Below, one piece after another: positions 4,861 through 23,896 of a DNA stretch of 64,000 bases. The stretch's first letter is position 1, and each line of letters opens with the position of its first letter. The notes under the pieces are model-generated. The model ran no database searches and had not been told where the DNA came from. It saw only the letters and a program-made list of their open reading frames with translations. Location: the NCBI RefSeq assembly GCF_000614145.1, contig NZ_BAKK01000007.1:62001-126000 (forward strand), in the 5' to 3' direction. The stretch comes from Bacteroides faecichinchillae JCM 17102. Lineage in GTDB: Bacteria; Bacteroidota; Bacteroidia; Bacteroidales; Bacteroidaceae. The position numbers and the translations under genes were made by a program.

Positions 4861-5310
4861 TTATTTGTTAGGTGAGGAATGATCGTCCGGTTCTGTATAG
4901 ACAATTTCAATTCCTGCTCGTTTTAATAGTTCTATTCCATCTTCCAGACGGTAGTGCTCTGAGTAAACTACCCTTTTGATTCCTGCCTGAATGATGAGTT
5001 TCGCACATTCAATACATGGTGAGGCAGTTACATACATCGTAGCCCCGTTACTACTGTTGTTAGAGCGGGCTATCTTGGTGATGGCATTTGCTTCAGCGTG
5101 AAGAACATACGGTTTTGTGAGATTGTTTTCGTCTTCGCATACATTTTCGAATCCCGAAGGTGTTCCGTTATATCCATCGGAGATAATCATCTTATCTTTT
5201 ACGATCAATGCTCCTACTTTACGACGCTGACAATATGAGTTTTCTGCCCATATACTGGCCATACGTATGTAACGTTTGTCAAGTTCTGATTGTTTCTTTT
5301 CTGTGTCCAT
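4861..5310 (-). CDS. dCMP deaminase (ComEB-like)
   Basis: Deoxycytidylate deaminase converts dCMP to dUMP for thymidylate synthesis. Of its 149 residues, the zinc site is visible as HAEANAI (His ligand and catalytic Glu) and the PCIECAK cysteine pair, preceded by the RRKVGALIVKD and YNGTPSGF substrate-loop motifs of the dCMP/CMP deaminase family. It sits 30 bases upstream of the S41 gene and 19 bases after the DUF4847-like lipoprotein gene in the same direction, so co-transcription is likely. Confidence 0.92.
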   Translation of the reverse strand: MDTEKKQSELDKRYIRMASIWAENSYCQRRKVGALIVKDKMIISDGYNGTPSGFENVCEDENNLTKPYVLHAEANAITKIARSNNSSNGATMYVTASPCIECAKLIIQAGIKRVVYSEHYRLEDGIELLKRAGIEIVYTEPDDHSSPNK

Positions 5311-5329
5311 CTTGTCGATTCCTTTCTGC

Positions 5330-5818
5330 TTACTTTAACACGCGGAAAAACATGCGGAATGTTCCTTTTGAATTTTTGTAAATAAGATATAGATTGTTCT
5401 CATCTCCTTGATAAGAAGCAGCAGCATTTATTCCTTCCAGAAAGTTCTCAGCAAGTTTATCATTGTCGCTTTGCCCTTTGATAGTAGCATTGAATCCGTT
5501 GTTTTTAGCATTGGCACTCCAGGTACCACTCAGATTGCTGGTGACTGTTGTTCCATTTATTTTTCCTTCAATGACGTCTCCTTCTACTATCCCTTCAAAT
5601 TTGATTGTATAGGTATTGGCTAGATTCAGTTTTTTGATAGTCTCTTCTTTTGAGATTCCCCAAAATGGTTCGTACATTCTGGTTTCCCCTTCTCTGGCTA
5701 TAAAGGACAGTTTCCAGGTTTTTCCTGTGAAGATAGCGGCTACGTCATCTGTGTCATTACAACCAGCAAACAGAGGTAAGAGCATAAACAGGCATACTAT
5801 TTTATATATCACTTTCAT
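5330..5818 (-). CDS. small lipoprotein, DUF4847-like
   Basis: A 162-residue protein with a lipoprotein signal peptide (MKVIYKIVCLFMLLPLFAGC, lipobox LFAGC). The mature part begins with an acidic stretch, then TGKTWKLSFIAREGETRMY, a beta-rich pattern resembling META/lipocalin-like small domains. It resembles the Bacteroides DUF4847 family, whose function is not known; this assignment is from memory of the family and its usual place beside an M3 peptidase. The start is 15 bases after the M3 stop. Confidence 0.7.
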   Translation of the reverse strand: MKVIYKIVCLFMLLPLFAGCNDTDDVAAIFTGKTWKLSFIAREGETRMYEPFWGISKEETIKKLNLANTYTIKFEGIVEGDVIEGKINGTTVTSNLSGTWSANAKNNGFNATIKGQSDNDKLAENFLEGINAAASYQGDENNLYLIYKNSKGTFRMFFRVLK

Positions 5819-14704: not shown

Positions 14705-16779
14705 ATGAGAAATATTATATTTTTTATATGCTGCCTGGTATCTTTTCCGATATGGGCGCAATCGGTAGAGGATAATCCAGAAGTAAGAAGCTGGTTAGAT
14801 AAAATGTTCCAACATCTTGATAAGACTAAAGTTCCCCATGGTTTATTACGTGATTATGCTTTCGAATTGGCTGATTTGGATATATAATGGTAAAGAACTT
14901 AATGATAGCAATTATGTAAATAAAGTCGGTTATGAGAATCTATTGAGAACTATCCGTTCTTCTGCTGTAGGAATAAAACCTTTTGATGCTGAAGAAGTAT
15001 TAGCAGCGCAATATGCCTTTAATGAAAAAGGTAAAGGTGTTATGGGAATTGTTCTGTATCAATATTCATATATTAAGGAAGATGCTTTAACCAATAACCT
15101 TATTAGATAAGAAAATGAGCAGGTATTCGATAATGTAATCAATGGCGTTTGGCAAAATCCTTATGCTACAGGATATACATTAGGATTTTCTGTTCAAGAT
15201 AGCACATTATATGGTAGTACCATTACCTATTCTTTCCCTGCTACTATTTGGAAGAGCAATATTACAGCAAGTAGTGTTGAGTTTGATGCAGATGACGGTA
15301 GAGGTTATATACTTATAACAAAGGGAGGAAGTCATTCTGTAACTTATAGTAATGATGGAGTCAAACATTTGAAAATGAGAGCAAAACTTTCGAATGGTTA
15401 CTGTTTATATAGCCACAGCTTGGCGAAAATCATTTCTGATGCAGAAATTTCAACGAGAGCAATAAAAGATGGTGTGATAGAACCTGATGAAACGAAAGAT
15501 TTTGAGGTAACCTTACCCTATAATGGTATAATAACCAAAGGACGAATCTCCTATTTATTTGCTGCAAACACTGAAAAAAAGATAAAGAAACCTTTTATTA
15601 TTATGGAAGGATTTGACCCTATCGAACTTGTGAAAAAGGAAGAAGCATACCGCGGAGATATAAAATATGGGACTACCAATTTAAAAACATTTGTAACATA
15701 TCTGCAAGATAGATATTCTGCATATTATAAACTTACAAGTGAATACGACATTATTTATATTGATTTATTTGACTGTAAATGTAGTATTCAGGCAAATGCA
15801 AGATTGTTTGAACGTGCTATGGAAATAATAAATGAGAGGAAAATTCAAGAAGGTTGTACGGAGAAGAACATTGTTTTTGCTCAAAGTATGGGAGGTCTAA
15901 TTGCTAGATATGGATTAAAGGAGATGGAGAACCAAGGCAAAATTCACTATACCTCTCTCTTGTTTTTCCAGGATACTCCGCATCTTGGTGCTCATATTCC
16001 CATGGGTATATTGCAAGGAATGAATGGTCTTTTAAGTTTTTATTATGAGAATAAAATCTTTGGGAGATTGGATTTTGGTGATGTTAAGTCGAAGTTAGCT
16101 CCGATTCTTTATAGTGATGCCGCCAAACAAATGTTTATCAATTTTGTAAATAGCAATGGCGATGTTGATAATTCAGTCCACAATGCGTGGCAGCGCGAGC
16201 TATCTCAGATGGTTAATGGAACAAATGAAGGTGAAAATAGATGGTCCCAATGTAGCTACAAACGGAAGTAAATACGTGATCAGAAATAACACTCAAAATT
16301 ATGCAATAAATTGGAATAGCTCTGATGAATCGGTGGCTACTATTGATAATACGGGTACACTGACAATGAAGAAGCATGGAATTATTACTATTACTGCAAA
16401 TTGTGTAATTAATAACATAACGACTAAGTTCCATAAAGAAGTTATGGTCGGTTTCCCGCCATTTGTGCTTGAATGGTCTATTGATGGTCAATATGTAGTA
16501 ACTGCTAGATGTATAGATCCGAACGATGAACCATTCATGAAATATCTTCTATATGAATGGAAGCTTAAAGGAGATAATGTGTCAAGTGTTAATATGGATT
16601 GGGTACAATCAACAGAACCTGAGAAGAAACTAGTGTTTGGTTATGGATAGGCCCTATATCAGTTGTGCTTCTCAGTTGCTGGTCGATTTGTGGACTTTGC
16701 GTACCCCCCCTGTTTGTATTCAAGGACTACTGAATTCAAATTTAAATTATATTACTTTTTGCCCTCATGCCCTCACTAA
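14705..16779 (+). pseudogene. damaged gene for a secreted PGAP1/lipase-like hydrolase with Ig-like domain
   Basis: The gene starts with a signal peptide (IIFFICCLVSFPIWAQ). It shifts frame near 14884 (DLDI then NGKELND; two bases lost in a TA run), has an in-frame TAA at 15108 followed by continued homology-like sequence (ENEQVFDNVINGVW), shifts again near 16220, and meets a TAG near 16648. The middle part contains an alpha/beta-hydrolase elbow, FAQSMGGLIARYGL, as in PGAP1-like lipases. The part after 16220 (NYAINWNSSDESVATIDNTG) is a BIG2/Ig-like fold. The last open frame ends at 16777, inside the left inverted repeat of the VirE unit. In-frame stops distinguish it from the simple deletions elsewhere, so true decay is plausible. 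Confidence 0.65.
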
Positions 16780-16865
16780 CTGCTGCAACCTCTTTGTTCA
16801 TCGGAGTTACAGCAGTTAGAGCAATGATGGTGGCAGAGTGGTGGCAACCTTTTGCCCTCACTCTA
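16759..16865 (+). repeat. left imperfect inverted repeat (107 bp) of the VirE unit
   Basis: Aligned with the reverse complement of 19507-19613 it matches at 76 of 107 positions without gaps (counted by eye). The two ends are best conserved: TTGCCCTCATG at the outside and the perfect 15-mer TTTGCCCTCACTCTA (16851-16865) at the inside. It also folds internally: CTAACTGCTG (16776-16785) with CAGCAGTTAG (16810-16819), and AGAGTG with CACTCT at the inner end. The stretch 16866-17035 beyond it shows no gene. Confidence 0.65.
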
Positions 16866-17081
16866 TATTCTGATTTTAATCTTCTTGCAGATGTAAGTAG
16901 ATAAATGTGCATTCAATTGTAATACAGGTAGTTAAATTGCGTGATTAATGTGGAGATGTACAGTGATTATAGTAAAAAGTATAATGCGTCTGCCCTGACT
17001 TTATTATAAGTAATGAGCAGAAGTATTAATAGATTAGTTCTCCTTCTCCTATTATAAACTTTATTCTTATTAATAGTAAAG

Positions 17082-17211
17082 TTATTCTTTATTAATTGAA
17101 ATCTATAAATGCAAGTTTCGTTTATATAAATGCAACTTGCATTTATATAAACGAAAGCCCTGTTTTTATAAACGCAACTTGCATTTATAGTTTATATCTA
17201 ATAAAGAATAA
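17082..17211 (+). repeat. nested palindrome / iteron-like array upstream of the VirE gene
   Basis: Three nested inverted repeats: outer arms TTATTCTTTATTA (17082-17094) and its complement 17199-17211; middle arms CTATAAATGCAAGTT (17103-17117) and complement 17176-17190; and an inner 41-bp perfect palindrome 17116-17156 (20-bp arms, one central C). The 11-mer TATAAATGCAA occurs at 17104 and 17125, inverted at 17137 and 17179, with a one-base variant at 17167. Such arrays are typical of replication origins or operator sites, but no function is shown here. Confidence 0.6.
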
Positions 17212-17404
17212 TTTCTCTATTAGAGGAAAAGAAGTTAGGCATTAAATAACAGGAAGTTTGTTATTAATGAAGTGGAGAATATCTATTAATGAAGAATTTA
17301 AAAGTCATCCGTTATCTATAAAAGCTTGTATTCTGAGAATTAATAGTGTACCTTTACGGGTATTAAGTAATAAATTGTAATAGTAGAAAAATAGATAAAG
17401 TAAA

Positions 17405-19498
17405 ATGAAGATTTCTTTAATCAGACGAGATGGATCGAATGGGAAAGAGGCTCTGAGTGTATGTGAAGCCAATGCCTTGTTCGACAAAATGAAGACAGAA
17501 ACTAAACCGGGATATGTCACGGCTTTGCGCGAACTGATACCGATGTTGGAGGGGACGTATGCCCGGTACGAACATATAGATAAATTGCCGTACGTTTATC
17601 CTGCCATGGAATATGCCCGTATCAAAGGAGGTGGACGAAGAATGAAACAGTATAACGGACTGGTACAGTTGGAGGTAAACCGATTGGCCGGCTTGTCCGA
17701 AATGGAACTTGTAAAGCGTCAAGTAGCACTGTTACCCCAGACTTTTGCTGCATTTTGCGGTTCTAGTGGCCGTAGTGTGAAGATATGGGTACGTTTTGCA
17801 TTGCCGGATGATCGAGGACTGCCTGTGAAAGAAGCAGAGGCAGCACTGTTTCATGCACATGCCTATTTGCTGGCTGTGAAATGTTATCAACCAATGCTTC
17901 CTTACGACATTGATCTAAAAGAACCGGTACTGACGCAAAAATGCCGTATGACATTGGACGAGAATCCTTATTATAATTCCGATGCAGCACCGTTCTGCCT
18001 GGAACAACCGCTGGCAATGCCGGGTGAAGAAACATTCCGGCAACGGAAACAGGGAGAGAAGAATCTTTTATTGCGGTTGAAACCGGGATTTGAGTCGGCT
18101 AAAACTTTCACGAAGATTTACGAGGCTGCATTAAACCGATCGCTTCAGGAAATGGAGAATTGGAAACGTGGTGATGACTTGCAACCTTTATTGGTACATC
18201 TTGCCGAACATTGTTTTAAAGCTGGTATACCCGAGGAGGAGGCTGTGCGTCAGACGCTTATCCATTATTATAGAGAGGAAGACATATTGCTGATACGCCC
18301 GGTATTTCATAATCTTTATCAGGAATGCAAGGGATTCGGGAGGAAAAGTAGCGTGGGCAGGGAACAGGAAACAGCTTTTTTGTTGGAGGAGTTTATGAAC
18401 CGCCGTTATGAATTCCGTTATAACACAGTGCTGGATGATTTGGAATATCGCCAACGTGATTCCGTTCATTTCTATTTTAAAGTTGTAGATAAGCGGGTGC
18501 GTAACAGTATTTCTATCTGTGCTTTAAAAGAAGGTATCAATGCATGGGACCGTGATGTAGACCGCTTCCTGAATTCAGAATTTGTCCCTTTGTACAATCC
18601 TGTAGAAGAATATCTTTATGATGTAGGTCGTTGGGACGGTAAAGACCGTATTCGTGCATTGGCAGACTTGGTTTCCTGTACTAATCCATATTGGAGGGAG
18701 TTGTTCTATCGTTGGTTTCTTAGCATGGTGGCTCATTGGAGAGGAATGGACCGGCAACATGGCAACAGTACTTCGCCTCTGCTTGTCGGTGCGCAGGGTT
18801 ATCGCAAATCGACGTTTTGCCGTATGATTTTGCCGCCAGAGTTACGTTTCGGATATACGGATAGCATTGATTTTAAGAGTAAGCAAGAAGCGGAACGTTA
18901 TTTGGGACGTTTTTTCCTGATTAACATCGATGAGTTCGACCAGGTCAATGTTAGTCAGCAGGGTTTTCTGAAACATTTGTTGCAAAAGCCTGTCGCTAAC
19001 TTGCGTAAGCCTCATGGTAACACGATCCGAGAGATACGTCGTTATGCTTCTTTTATTGGTACCAGTAATCAGAAAGATTTGCTTACCGACCCCAGTGGTA
19101 GCCGTCGTTTCATTTGTATTGAGGTGATAGCTCCTATCAAAACTAATGCTACCATCAACTATAGACAGCTTTATGCCCAAGCAATGGAGGCTGTTTCCAA
19201 AGGTGAGCGTTACTGGCTGGATGACGAAGATGAGAATATCTTGAAGCAGACGAACCGAGAGTTTGAACAGATGAGTCCTTTAGAACAGCTGTTTCATTGC
19301 TTTCTCCGTCCGGCGGAAGAGGAGGAGGATGGCGAATGGATGACATCCATGCAAATTTTGAATTATTTGCAGACGAGGACGCGCGATAAGTTGGCTATCA
19401 ATAAGGTGGCAGTATTTGGCCGGACACTTCAGAAGTTAAATATCCCTTGCCGGAAATCTAGCAAGGGGACACTTTATCATTTGATGAAAATGGAGTAA
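17405..19498 (+). CDS. VirE-domain P-loop protein (BT4734/BF3469 type)
   Basis: A 697-residue protein with the Bacteroides VirE N-terminal domain (about residues 50-190, primase-like RRMKQYNGLVQLEVNRL). The VirE helicase/ATPase domain has a P-loop variant GAQGYRKST near residues 463-471 (Arg before the Lys) and Walker B FFLINIDEFD near 502. The following GTSNQKDLLTDPSGSRRF is the SF3-like sensor region. The C-terminal part fits a DUF3874-like winged domain. Related genes sit in mobile regions, often with HU-like and amidase genes, which are absent here. Function is unknown; helicase-primase activity is inferred from the fold. It lies alone between matched inverted repeats. Confidence 0.88.
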   Translation: MKISLIRRDGSNGKEALSVCEANALFDKMKTETKPGYVTALRELIPMLEGTYARYEHIDKLPYVYPAMEYARIKGGGRRMKQYNGLVQLEVNRLAGLSEMELVKRQVALLPQTFAAFCGSSGRSVKIWVRFALPDDRGLPVKEAEAALFHAHAYLLAVKCYQPMLPYDIDLKEPVLTQKCRMTLDENPYYNSDAAPFCLEQPLAMPGEETFRQRKQGEKNLLLRLKPGFESAKTFTKIYEAALNRSLQEMENWKRGDDLQPLLVHLAEHCFKAGIPEEEAVRQTLIHYYREEDILLIRPVFHNLYQECKGFGRKSSVGREQETAFLLEEFMNRRYEFRYNTVLDDLEYRQRDSVHFYFKVVDKRVRNSISICALKEGINAWDRDVDRFLNSEFVPLYNPVEEYLYDVGRWDGKDRIRALADLVSCTNPYWRELFYRWFLSMVAHWRGMDRQHGNSTSPLLVGAQGYRKSTFCRMILPPELRFGYTDSIDFKSKQEAERYLGRFFLINIDEFDQVNVSQQGFLKHLLQKPVANLRKPHGNTIREIRRYASFIGTSNQKDLLTDPSGSRRFICIEVIAPIKTNATINYRQLYAQAMEAVSKGERYWLDDEDENILKQTNREFEQMSPLEQLFHCFLRPAEEEEDGEWMTSMQILNYLQTRTRDKLAINKVAVFGRTLQKLNIPCRKSSKGTLYHLMKME

Positions 19499-19506
19499 AT
19501 GAGGCA

Positions 19507-19613
19507 TAGAGTGAGGGCAAACAGTTGTTCTCACTCTACTACCATCGGATCTCTCATAGCTGAAATCACGATGAATAGGGGATTTGGTGAGGATAGTGAG
19601 AGCATGAGGGCAA
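19507..19613 (-). repeat. right imperfect inverted repeat (107 bp) of the VirE unit
   Basis: Partner of 16759-16865, starting 9 bases after the VirE stop. TAGAGTGAGGGCAAA (19507-19521) is the perfect complement of the left inner end, and AGTGAGAGCATGAGGGCAA (ends 19613) matches the left outer end with one mismatch. TAGAGTGAG (19507-19515) and CTCACTCTA (19530-19538) form a hairpin at the inner end, as in the left arm. The right edge is 13 bases from the stop of the Crp-family gene. Confidence 0.65.
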
Positions 19614-19626
19614 TGATGTATACTAT

Positions 19627-20307
19627 TTATAGGAGGCTATTACTATTTTGTAACTTTTGTGCATCCGGGATAACAATCTCTTTTCTATGCAACTCAATTA
19701 AACCGCAATCCTGCAATTCATTCAGTGTTTTGGAAATATTGAGCCGCGTATCATCCAAGCAGCGTGCCAAATCGTCCATCTTCACTTTAAAGATCTTTTC
19801 ACCCTGTGGCTTTTCACAGTGCGACAGGAAGAAACGATTGATTTTACTTTTTAAATCCGGTGTAGGTTCTTCCCATAGACGAGCATAAAGATTTTGAGCA
19901 CGATTACTGATAATGTTCATATAGTTGAGACGAAAAATCTCATACTTGAATAAGTCATTTAGCACAAAGGATTTGCTGATATTAACAGAATGTGCTTCGG
20001 TTTTAGCTACATAAGAAGATTTATAAGTCGTACTCATACCAAACAAAGACTGTGCCTCGATCAGATAAGGAGCTTCCACTTGTTCTATTACTGTATATAT
20101 ATCTTCTTTTGCCCTTGTTATTATAGAAATCTCACCCTTTAGCAGAAAACTGAGTTGTTTGCATGGACTACCGCTCTCTATAATTGTTTCCCCTGCTTTA
20201 TGTTTGATAAAAAGCAATTTGACCTTATCCAATATACTGGTAAAATCTTCATGGCAAAGACCTTGAAATAAAGGTAATTGGAGTAAAGTGTCGAACATTG
20301 TTTCCAT
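19627..20307 (-). CDS. Crp/Fnr family transcriptional regulator
   Basis: 226 residues. The N-terminal cyclic-nucleotide-binding beta-roll (about 20-115; [20 protein letters not shown]) is followed by a long dimer helix and a C-terminal winged HTH at about 165-215 ([20 protein letters not shown]). No Fnr-type cysteine cluster is present. The phosphate-binding cassette is not well conserved, so the effector is unknown. It is divergent from marC with a shared promoter region; its own -7 box is at 20333-20340. A start nine bases downstream (MFDTLL) is also possible. Confidence 0.9.
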
Positions 20308-20332
20308 GAGCTAAAATCTTTTGTTAATTTCA

Positions 20333-20340
20333 CAAATTTA
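20333..20340 (-). promoter_or_regulatory. -7 box for the Crp-family gene
   Basis: The minus strand reads TAAATTTG, matching TAnnTTTG, 26 bases upstream of the start at 20307. Confidence 0.45.
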
Positions 20341-20416
20341 CTCATAATACGATATTACTAATCCCATCTGACCTTACTTTTTGTTTTTTTTATTGTTTGA
20401 AAGCCTAAAAATAGAG

Positions 20417-20424
20417 TATATTTG
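20417..20424 (+). promoter_or_regulatory. -7 box for marC
   Basis: TATATTTG matches TAnnTTTG. A TTTG at 20396-20399 gives a 17-bp gap, slightly short for -33. An unusually strong Shine-Dalgarno AAGGAGGA lies at 20432-20439 ahead of the ATG at 20445. Confidence 0.5.
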
Positions 20425-20444
20425 CAATAAAAAAGGAGGATATT

Positions 20445-21042
20445 ATGTTTGCAGGCTTTAATTGGCAGCAAATGTTCAGTGCATTTATTGCACTTTTTGC
20501 TGTAATAGATATTATTGGTTCTATACCTATTATCATAAACTTGAAAGAGAAAGGTAAGGGAGTGAATGCAATGAAGGCTACTATAATCTCTTTTGTATTA
20601 TTGATAGGGTTCTTTTATGCAGGAGATATGTTATTGAAGCTCTTTCGGGTAGATATTGAATCATTTGCGGTTGCGGGTGCGTTTGTTATATTTCTTTTAT
20701 CTTTGGAGATGATTCTGGATATTGAAATTTTTAAGAATCAAGGTCCTATTAAAGAGGCTACTTTAGTACCTCTTGTTTTTCCCTTATTGGCAGGTGCCGG
20801 AGCTTTTACTATGTTACTTTCCTTCGGGCAGAATATGCTGATATCAACATAATTATAGCTTGATACTAAATATGATCTGGGTTTATTTTGTGGTAAGTAT
20901 GACCGGACGGGTAGAACGCTTTTTGGGTAAGGGTGGTATTTATATTATTCGTAAGTTTTTCGGGATTATTCTTTTAGCTATTGCTGTAAGGCTATTTACT
21001 GCAAATATTACCTTGTTAATAGAAGCGTTGCAAAAACATTGA
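20445..21042 (+). CDS. MarC family integral membrane protein, two lesions
   Basis: MarC (UPF0056) proteins are six-TM inner-membrane proteins of unknown transport role. The first frame (MFAGFNWQQMFSAFIALFAV) breaks near 20824, where TLLSLRAEYADINI is expected, and again near 20861. Adding one G and one T restores a 199-residue protein, the family length. The second part carries the last TM helices (MIWVYFVVSMTG, GIILLAIAVRLF). Both lesions are single missing bases, as elsewhere in the window. It is convergent with the rhomboid gene; an 11-bp inverted repeat (21064-21074 / 21092-21102) lies between them. Confidence 0.88.
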
Positions 21043-21092
21043 TTGAAATATTGAATATCAGGTAAGTCTATAGTGCATAAGACGATATCTAA

Positions 21093-21770
21093 CTATAGAC
21101 TTTCCGTATCTTCTTTGTCATTTTTTTCTGTATCTTCCTCAAAGTTTTCTTTTTCAATATTCTCTTCCTCTATTTCATTTTCATCTGCAAAAGGATCCGG
21201 ACGTTGGGGGCCATAGTTTACAAAAGCAAATGCACAGAGGACTCCCATAATACCACCACTGAGATGTCCTTCCCACGACATATTGGCAGGAGAAAAATAA
21301 GGAAACATATGCCATACAATTCCCCCGTATAGAAATGTGACTAATAAAGATATGGCAATTAGTGGAACATATTTGCGAAGAATACCACTGAAAAAGAGAA
21401 AGAAAGCAAGGCCGTAAACCAGTCCACTTGCACCAATATGCCATCCCGGTTTGCCAATGAAGAATGTGAGTATTCCGCAACCAAGCCAGATAAGTATGAA
21501 AATTCTACCGGATATTCCCCGATAAAAGTAAAATAAACACCATGATAAAAAGAATAAGGGGAGGGTATTTGCAAATAAATGACTGAAACCACTGTGTATC
21601 AATGGATGAGTCAGAATACCTATTATCCCCCTTTTCTCCATAGGATAAACTCCCAGATGAGAGAAGTCCCAGTCCATTCCTACTTCAATCGTTTTAAGTA
21701 AGTAAAGGATAAAAATAAGGAACAAAGATCTGGCTGCAGCTAGCATGATACGCTGAATGTCCTGCTTCAT
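21093..21770 (-). CDS. rhomboid family intramembrane serine protease
   Basis: The catalytic Ser is in HIGASGLVYG and the catalytic His in GHLSGGIMG, with about six TM helices between residues 10 and 190. An early HSGFSHLFANTLPLF segment supplies the family His/Asn residues. The C-terminus is a strongly acidic cytoplasmic-type tail (Glu/Asp/Asn repeats, last 35 residues). It cleaves TM substrates within the membrane; substrates here are unknown. The ATG at 21770 (MKQDIQRIML) is preferred to the upstream in-frame ATG at 21800, which would add ten hydrophilic residues. Confidence 0.92.
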   Translation of the reverse strand: MKQDIQRIMLAAARSLFLIFILYLLKTIEVGMDWDFSHLGVYPMEKRGIIGILTHPLIHSGFSHLFANTLPLFFLSWCLFYFYRGISGRIFILIWLGCGILTFFIGKPGWHIGASGLVYGLAFFLFFSGILRKYVPLIAISLLVTFLYGGIVWHMFPYFSPANMSWEGHLSGGIMGVLCAFAFVNYGPQRPDPFADENEIEEENIEKENFEEDTEKNDKEDTESL

Positions 21771-21959
21771 TACATTCTTTTCTTTAGATATTTTACACAA
21801 TACTACGAATATTTACACAAAATCTGAAAATAAAAAGCCTTTTTATTTTTGTTTTTATCTATAATTTGTACATTTGGGCATTATACCTATGTAGACAGTG
21901 CTCTGAGCGGTGTTTATATGCTATGGACCAAATAATTAACCTTTAAATAATGCACAACT

Positions 21960-23896
21960 ATGAGTTATTTACGATTTGACAAGACCCTCATGACGAATCT
22001 GGAAGAATCCCTGCAACGGGAAATTCTCCGGACGAACAAAGCAGGAGCTTATCATTGTACAACGATTGTTGATTGTAACACACGCAAATATCACGGGCTG
22101 TTGGTAATTCCTGTGCCAAATCTCGACGATGAAAATCATGTGCTGCTATCTTCTCTTGATGAAACGGTAATTCAACACGGTGCGGAGTTTAACTTGGGTT
22201 TACATAAATATCAAGGAAACCACTTTAGTCCGAATGGACATAAGTATATTCGTGAGTTTGATTGTGAACATATCCCGGCGACAACTTACCGTGTTGGAGG
22301 TGTGGTTCTACGAAAAGAAAAAATCTTTGTACACCATGAGAATAGAATTCTGATTCGTTATACATTACTTGACGCGCATTCGGCTACCACCTTGCGTTTC
22401 AGACCTTTTCTAGCTTTCCGCAGTGTGCGTGAATATACGCATGAGAACTCGCAGGCGAGCCGCGATTATCAGATTGTGGAGAATGGTATCAAGACTTGTA
22501 TGTATCCCGGTTATCCGGAGCTGTTTATGCAGTTGAATAAGAAATGTGAATTTGTTTTTCAGCCTGACTGGTATCGGGGAATCGAGTATCCTAAAGAGCA
22601 GGAACGTGGATACGATTTTAATGAAGATCTCTACGTGCCTGGGTATTTTGAGGTAGATATCAAGAAAGGTGAAAGTATTGTCTTTTCTGCCGGAACATCT
22701 GAGATCACTCCCCGTAAGTTGAAACAAACATTTGATGCGGAAGTTGCCGACCGTACTCCACGAGATAGTTTCTATCATTGCTTGAAGAATTCGGCTCACC
22801 AATTCCACAATCAACAGGGAGATGAACATTATATTCTTGCCGGTTATCCTTGGTTTAAGTGTCGTGCTCGCGATATGTTTATTTCTCTGCCGGGATTGAC
22901 CCTTGCTATCGACGAGGTTGATCAATTTGAAGATGTGATGAAAACTGCGGAAAAGGTAATTCGTAATTTTATCAATGATGAACCGGTAGGATATAAGATA
23001 TATGAAATGGATCATCCGGATGTATTATTGTGGGTTGTTTGGGCTTTGCAGCAATATGCTAAGGAAACTTCCCGCGAACAATGCCGCCGGAAATATGGCA
23101 AATTGTTGGTTGATATCATGGAATTTATCCGTCAGCGGAAACATGAGAATCTATTCTTACATGAGAATGGCTTGCTTTTTGCTAACGGCGTGGATAAGGC
23201 AATTACGTGATGAACTCTACAGTAAACGGTCGCCCGGTAATTCCCCGTACAGGATATATTGTTGAGTTTAATGCATTGTGGTATAATGCGTTGCGTTTCA
23301 CTGCTGATCTGGTTCGCGAAGGAGGCGATGCTCATCTTGCCGATTCGCTCGATGCACAAGCAGAAGTAACAGCTCAATCATTTATAGAAGTATTCCGTAA
23401 CGAATACGGTTACTTACTTGATTATGTAGACGGAAATATGATGGATTGGAGTGTACGTCCCAATATGATCTTTGCCGTCGCATTTGATTATTCACCTCTA
23501 GATAGGGTACAAAAGAAACAAGTGCTTGATATTGTAACTAAAGAGTTGCTGACTCCGAAAGGGCTTCGTACATTGAGTCCGAAGAGTGGGGGATATAACC
23601 CGAATTATGTTGGTCCTCAGATACAGCGTGATTATGCTTACCATCAGGGTACAGCTTGGCCGTGGTTGATGGGATTCTATATGGAAGCCTATCTTCGTAT
23701 TTATAAAATGAGTGGTTTATCGTTCGTAGAGCGTCAGCTCATCGGACTGGAAGATGAACTAACCATTCATTGTATTAGTTCGTTACCCGAATTGTTTGAT
23801 GGTAACCCGCCTTTCAAAGGTCGTGGAGCTGTTTCGTTTGCTATGAATGTTGCCGAAGTGCTGCGTATTCTAAAGCTGTTGTCTAAGTATTATTAA
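21960..23896 (+). CDS. glycogen debranching enzyme (amylo-alpha-1,6-glucosidase), frameshifted
   Basis: A GH133-type debranching enzyme. The N-terminal glucan-binding domain begins near KAGAYHCTTIVDCNTRKYHG, and the (alpha/alpha)6 catalytic domain includes GYPWFKCRARDMFISLPGL and YHQGTAWPWLMGFY. The frame breaks at about 23209. Adding one G gives DKAITWMNSTVNGRPVIPRT and a 645-residue protein of normal length. It removes alpha-1,6 branches from stored glycogen in the cytoplasm. It heads a rightward cluster with GT4 and GH57 genes, 17 bases before the GT4 start, and a strong AGGAGG precedes that next gene. Confidence 0.93.

Follow-up and report, generated by a model that had tools for sequence, protein, structure and literature searches.

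A Bacteroides VirE-domain gene between inverted palindromic arms resembles a mobile unit without a recognisable transposase

Introduction

A 64,000-nucleotide stretch of the Bacteroides faecichinchillae JCM 17102 genome (the window, analysed here at its full length) carries at positions 16759-19613 a VirE-domain gene between two inverted palindromic repeats, hereafter called arms. A comparable layout is that of RAYT-REP, in which, according to the available part of PMC2817692, a single gene lies between inverted palindromic repeats and the repeat is also scattered intergenically. The likeness extends to the inverted repeats, present at the window unit and at 29 of 57 relatives, and to the intergenic dispersal of arms in one lineage, named here after the VirE locus L005. 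On the other hand, the gene encodes a VirE primase-helicase and not the IS200/IS605-type transposase that defines the RAYT family, and the arms mostly measure 100-150 bases with several motif copies, whereas a REP is short with a GT(A/G)G head. The C-terminal half of the VirE protein resembles PriRep1 of the staphylococcal pathogenicity islands (SaPIs), with the same fold over 369 residues. SaPIs are large islands with an integrase and phage-interference genes; unlike SaPIs and phage-inducible chromosomal islands generally, the units described here hold one or two genes between their arms, and no integrase or phage-satellite genes were recognised between the arms of the window unit. Miniature inverted-repeat transposable elements offer a parallel for a gene-free derivative with inverted ends (locus L200), although no transposase-bearing partner was recognised and no target duplication was seen by eye at L200. 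The window unit also differs from a classical insertion sequence in that no transposase gene was recognised in it.

At the protein level, the VirE product shares its N-terminal PF08800 domain with the BT4734-like/VirE_N primases and CAPP_B. The available parts of two papers place VirE proteins in mobile and transposable elements (PMC8211822) and the BT4734-like family among archaeo-eukaryotic primases (AEPs) (PMC5862659), and in those parts neither mentions repeats in connection with VirE or BT4734-like proteins. A literature search covering titles and the openings of abstracts, with subscription journals mostly outside its coverage, found no description of such arms around VirE.

Results

The left arm (16759-16865, plus strand) and its reverse-complement partner, the right arm (19507-19613, minus strand), form an inverted repeat of about 107 bases. 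Their ungapped comparison reproduced the count given in the original prediction, 76 identities in 107 positions, with the outermost 12 and the innermost 15 bases identical. With gaps allowed, local alignment of the surrounding sequence gave, as its best result, the same borders plus one inner base. Compared with the minus strand of the whole window, the left arm averages 26.6 identities (standard deviation 4.6); the next minus-strand score, 56, comes from the left arm paired with 16730-16836, which overlaps it, and no other ungapped match on either strand exceeds 49. Across the whole 4.78-Mb genome, the left arm found the right arm at E 2e-8 and the next place at E 0.128, and a pattern search allowing one mismatch gave one further arm-like place, on contig C144, where a weak gene-free relative near position 1779 is the only other copy of the window's own arm.

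The left arm begins with GCCCTCAC-like motifs at 16761 and 16769, continues through a spacer with CTTTGTTCATCGG and two degenerate reverse copies of the motif at 16815 and 16838 (two mismatches each), and ends innermost in a hairpin that holds a forward copy at 16854. The first base of the right arm is the ninth after the VirE stop codon; its inner hairpin (19507-19538) has 14 pairs, two of them G-T, with no T run after it, and its spacer contains CCCTATTCATCGT. As single-stranded DNA the window arms fold with z -3.0 (left) and -2.7 (right), within a range of -2.7 to -5.1 for five arm sequences. No Rfam match was obtained for 15000-22000, and tRNA and NCBIfam searches gave no match.

VirE loci, defined by a gene with BT4734-like_N and VapE-like domains, numbered 86 (79 from a collection of genome contigs and seven from the window's own genome, G000, assembled in 144 contigs), of which 76 had enough flanking sequence and 10 did not. 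For each, 1.3 kb of upstream sequence was locally aligned with the reverse-complemented 0.7 kb downstream of the same gene, and a score of 45 was taken as the threshold. Before dereplication 40 of the 76 reached this score; after it, matched inverted arms were present at 29 of 57 loci, whereas mismatched pairings gave 11 of 570 and a direct-orientation control 2 of 57; longer genes among the 57 had arms in 25 of 48 cases. By this alignment measure, upstream and downstream arms match much more often at one locus than across loci. VirE-domain genes are common in Bacteroides, as had been stated: there are seven in the window's genome, and 65 of 119 genomes of the genus have one at E <= 1e-50. The other six matches in G000 are 34-56% identical to the window VirE; L001, L002, L004 and L005 score at least 45, and L003, L006 and L007 fall below. 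The window's arm sequence was found at none of these six, and a single arm sequence common to all VirE genes was rejected on that count. The expectation that the repeats flank other VirE genes stands for inverted arms of each locus's own, at 29 of the 57, and for the window's particular sequence was not borne out at the other six matches in G000.

Arms in the family are mostly 100-150 bases long, and their motifs, read by eye, are GCCCTCA in the window's clade, CTATCAC at L005 and L071, TTGTCACT in the L002 group, GTGACAGCA at L046-L054, TGCAACA at L045, GCCAGCAC at L078, ATCCTACA at L038 and GACTGACA at L092-L096. The core CCYTATTCATCGK was considered as a feature of every arm and rejected beyond the window's clade, L005 and L031, with L075, L086 and L095 marginal. 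As a separate observation, several VirE genes are interrupted around codon 450-510, the pieces standing about 9-14 kb apart with a few residues repeated, or else remain whole while roughly their last 190 codons recur nearby (G047:C65:124088-136348; G001:C58:39300-55824; G036:C3:100363-105694; L087, L091, L093, L099), as if an integrative element used the gene as its site.

The stretch from arm to arm can be followed between genomes. For example, L027 (G091) and L289 (G086) are 93% identical over 3381 bases, and this homology has its left border at the outermost base of the left arm and its right border 4 bases past the right arm, with none found outside. Offsets of the homology ends from the arms are similarly small for L069 and L070 (-1/-1), L070 and L042 (+1/0) and L041 and L042 (+4/-3), and homology runs on further in pairs that occupy one and the same place. 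Within the window's clade (eight loci, 72-100% protein identity, including L029, where no arms were detected), 27 of 28 pairs have no common flanking homology by tblastx (E <= 1e-5) within 2.8-3.9 kb; L057 and L289 have part of the right flank in common. Relatives 84-89% identical are located at unrelated places. Taken with the arms at 29 of 57 loci, these borders agree with the claim that the unit is self-contained, and in sequence terms the arm-to-arm stretch behaves as a discrete unit of RAYT-REP-like layout. A target inside hairpin loops, suggested by eye at L078, L075 and L200, was not seen at L027/L289 and was set aside. At L035 and L067, the left flank of each matches the right flank of the other, as if the VirE units lay at the same place in opposite orientations.

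Arms are also found apart from VirE genes, which the original prediction did not foresee. When 23 genomes were searched with the L005 locus, many of the matches listed were short ones to the arms alone, and the 40 loci examined hold 44 arm copies, those of L005-type VirE loci included. Gene-free arms of this lineage number at least 11 in G000 and 11, at 10 loci, in its neighbour G030; an overlap of more than 20 bases with an ATG-started frame of at least 100 amino acids was seen in none of the 22. L005-type arms are present in 13 of 119 genomes of the genus, and of the 12 among these that the L005 locus search also covered, 8 gave a long L005-type VirE match (G000, G009, G012, G021, G030, G082, G086, G091). 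By these matches, related arms are dispersed in intergenic DNA, with or without a matching gene found in the genome. Lineage-specific copies exist on both sides: L234 in G000 has no G030 counterpart, and L245 in G030 is missing in G000. In the window's clade, no VirE match was found in eleven 7-12-kb stretches around arms (L193-L203); one of them, L200 (G110), holds two inverted arms at 5146-5581 with a repeat array and no gene between them, and no target duplication by eye. The L027-like arm has seven copies in G091, inside a longer shared repeat. L176-L183, which are L027-like gene-free arms, have a fixed outer end, and the extent of the shared repeat on the other side varies.

Between the window's arms, VirE (17405-19498, plus strand, 697 amino acids) is the sole gene recognised among the open frames. 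It carries the BT4734-like AEP-helicase architecture, with PF08800 (BT4734-like_N) at residues 57-190, PF05272 (VapE-like) at 409-621 and PF12990 (DUF3874) at 623-692; DUF5906 fell below the cut-off, and the PADLOC PrimPol model matches residues 57-189. No transposase was recognised inside the unit from the frame list and Pfam, a search confined to the unit and not extended to the rest of the genomes, and Pfam found no IS200/IS605-type (Transposase_17) domain in the VirE protein.

The original description of VirE as a P-loop, primase-like replication protein was right in outline, resting on these domains together with PriRep1 and weak AEP fold matches. A model of the whole protein (mean pLDDT 83, pTM 0.69) has as its best Protein Data Bank match PriRep1 (7pds; Foldseek E 3e-16; Z 24.3 over 369 residues between 313 and 697, root-mean-square deviation 4.6), followed by the C-terminal region of NrS-1 (Z 14.2), and a profile search of the PDB sequences returned 7pds only. 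In the model, then, the C-terminal half of VirE is folded like the initiator-helicase PriRep1. Folded alone, residues 1-210 reach pLDDT 92.6 and match AEP primases weakly (RepB', Z 7.5; S-2L PrimPol, Z 7.4); they also match HP0184, which is not labelled a primase, at Z 6.6, and Foldseek gave this domain no match better than E 0.005. K468, S469, T470, D509 and E510 are invariant across all 53 VirE sequences compared. The presumed AEP metal-ligand columns are poorly conserved, that of E90 being acidic in 26 of 53 and that of N92 in 8 of 53, counting the commonest residues listed. DbCAPP requires D86 and D88 in the same domain type, according to the available part of PMC8211822, and on an assumed column correspondence the window VirE differs in having E90 and N92 there; the primase-like domain of VirE may lack the catalytic residues.

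Upstream of VirE, the interval from the left arm (16866-17404) contains no HU-HIG-like frame in the window, as at L022 and L025. A longer interval with an antisense HU-HIG-like frame is found at L023 (where the frame is shortened), L024, L027, L028, L057 and L031. Such a frame, a second gene that the original prediction did not foresee, occurs in 15 of the 40 arm-bounded loci; both of the two frames tested match PF18291. At L083 the VirE frame is broken, yet the arms are retained and match over 176 bases. The window interval includes an A/T-rich dyad (16990-17300, limits by eye) of palindromic repeats spaced by about 21 bases, with its core at 17104-17190. That these repeats are VirE-specific iterons was rejected, as such arrays follow many gene-free arms and also occur without arms at the same intergenic sites; with the L200 unit as query, each of five genomes gave at least 25-36 matches, and the majority of those listed were to its array part. 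Arrays of palindromic repeats of about 14-22 bases recur between genes, separate from arms (window 16990-17300; L275, L277, L278, L279), and the repeat type at one intergenic site varies between species by eye. DUF6078-like genes stand beside or inside VirE units at L046-L054, L077, L045, L075 and L086, the L075 copy being a PF19555 match and the others judged by eye.

The window unit lies between guaA and a Crp-family gene, its right arm ending, as reported, 13 bases from the latter (13 bases before the listed frame end, 19627). As to the suggested look for empty sites, in stretches around the Crp gene of 16 relatives, guaA and crp are adjacent without VirE in nine. VirE stands beside crp in four of the 16, three of which have the right arm mostly missing; in one VirE is 13 kb away, and in two the stretch contains neither guaA nor VirE. 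The distance from VirE to crp is 1.9 kb at L023 and 0.6 kb at L024. On the other side, the so-called hydrolase gene (14799-16650) is in pieces, and of two pieces tested only one gave a Pfam domain, Big_2. At L023 the corresponding gene is one open frame (868 codons within the stretch compared) that ends at 2608, outside the arm, which starts at 2935. Two stretches present at L023 are missing from the window: about 700 bases within the gene (L023 994-1693), and a second one of about 810 bases (L023 2107-2914) that takes in the 3' end of the gene and stops 20 bases before the arm. The idea that the left arm starts inside the 3' end of this gene was mistaken, and insertion of the unit into the gene was rejected, because in the relative it is a single open frame whose end lies 326 bases before the same arm.

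Discussion

We consider it probable, on balance, that 16759-19613 is a copy of a family of small mobile units of the Bacteroidales in which a VirE gene lies between inverted palindromic arms. The unit has the appearance of a transposable element in which no enzyme for transposition can be recognised, and the VirE product most likely recognises the arms.

Several observations weigh against this reading. No arms were detected within the span searched at 28 of the 57 loci, the arm core is significant in some clades only, and it was by eye that motifs were matched to VirE lineages. For L069 and L042 the homology does stop at the arms, yet a protein-level relative is common to their left flanks. 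Many pairs do not end at the arms: in several, homology breaks off 50-200 bases within the arm-to-arm unit (L023 and L027 among them), and in the L046-L054/L077 and L089-L096 groups it runs 350-590 bases past the right arm. Target duplication is not above chance (own mean 1.75 against 1.98 for mismatched pairs, n = 40), in a test for which unit ends are known to within a few bases. Among the dispersed copies, 10 of the 11 in G000 are matched by one in G030 (L238, L240, L242 and L244, and six more established by aligning flanks). A clean empty site was obtained for none of the gene-free copies: at the L234 and L245 sites the other genome holds different intergenic sequence with other repeat arrays. 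Four genomes with L005-type arms (G044, G093, G106, G110) have no L005-type VirE among the matches listed, which in sequence terms fits either orphan copies or arms independent of VirE. Furthermore, binding, replication and movement are all steps that we infer, and for binding by VirE this counts against the reading.

Of the alternatives, the least improbable, though still unlikely, is that the arms are duplicated origins of a former plasmid or phage-satellite replicon, with VirE an initiator carried by larger elements and the arms not self-moving. The PriRep1-like fold of VirE is in line with this, as are relatives on Bacteroides plasmids and in fecal records labelled phage, and the motif copies around a spacer may resemble an iteron origin of the SaPI layout; a passive origin pair, however, does not predict many dispersed gene-free arms or copies ending at the arms. 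Rather more doubtful is an ordinary transposon family whose ends are the arms, with the transposase acting in trans and VirE as cargo or helper. Although VirE is the only recognised gene between the window's arms, and paired ends with gene-free derivatives are typical of transposase-driven families, the arm motifs vary by VirE lineage (by eye) and the duplication result just given speaks against it. That the arms are cis-regulatory or terminator-like palindromes of VirE, locally copied and with dispersed look-alikes, is very improbable, since despite the strong hairpin that starts at the ninth base after the stop codon, no T run follows it, the arms match each other over 100 bases and bound a homologous unit in some pairs, and arms occur in 7-12-kb stretches without a VirE match.

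For the mobile-unit family, a possible mechanism begins with VirE binding the repeated arm motifs, as initiators bind origin repeats; it would then unwind the arm DNA and copy or liberate the unit. The unit and its gene-free derivatives, the latter moved in trans, would spread replicatively, through a single-strand-based process that leaves no target duplication; we favour this over cut-and-paste because target duplications are not above chance and no transposase was recognised. Cutting and joining would fall to host enzymes or to an unrecognised activity of the VirE protein, and the route may be likened to the one proposed for RAYT and REPs, with an unrelated protein. Fuller forms of the family would add the HU-HIG gene beside the VirE primase-helicase gene. 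The window copy lacks the HU-HIG gene and its place near crp is common to its closest relatives; therefore, it may no longer move.

More tentatively, and with the balance somewhat against it, these units might represent a class of transposable element whose sole shared protein is an initiator-helicase and whose inverted ends are its own origin-like binding sites, spreading by replication fired at the ends, seeding gene-free end copies and changing motif by lineage. To our knowledge, no tested function has been described for arm-bounded VirE genes. If these genes do drive a family of dispersed repeats, they would thereby gain a function, some of the intergenic palindromes of these genomes would be accounted for, and mobility driven by a replication initiator would have a case, in which each lineage supplies its own matched arm and protein and so makes the idea testable.

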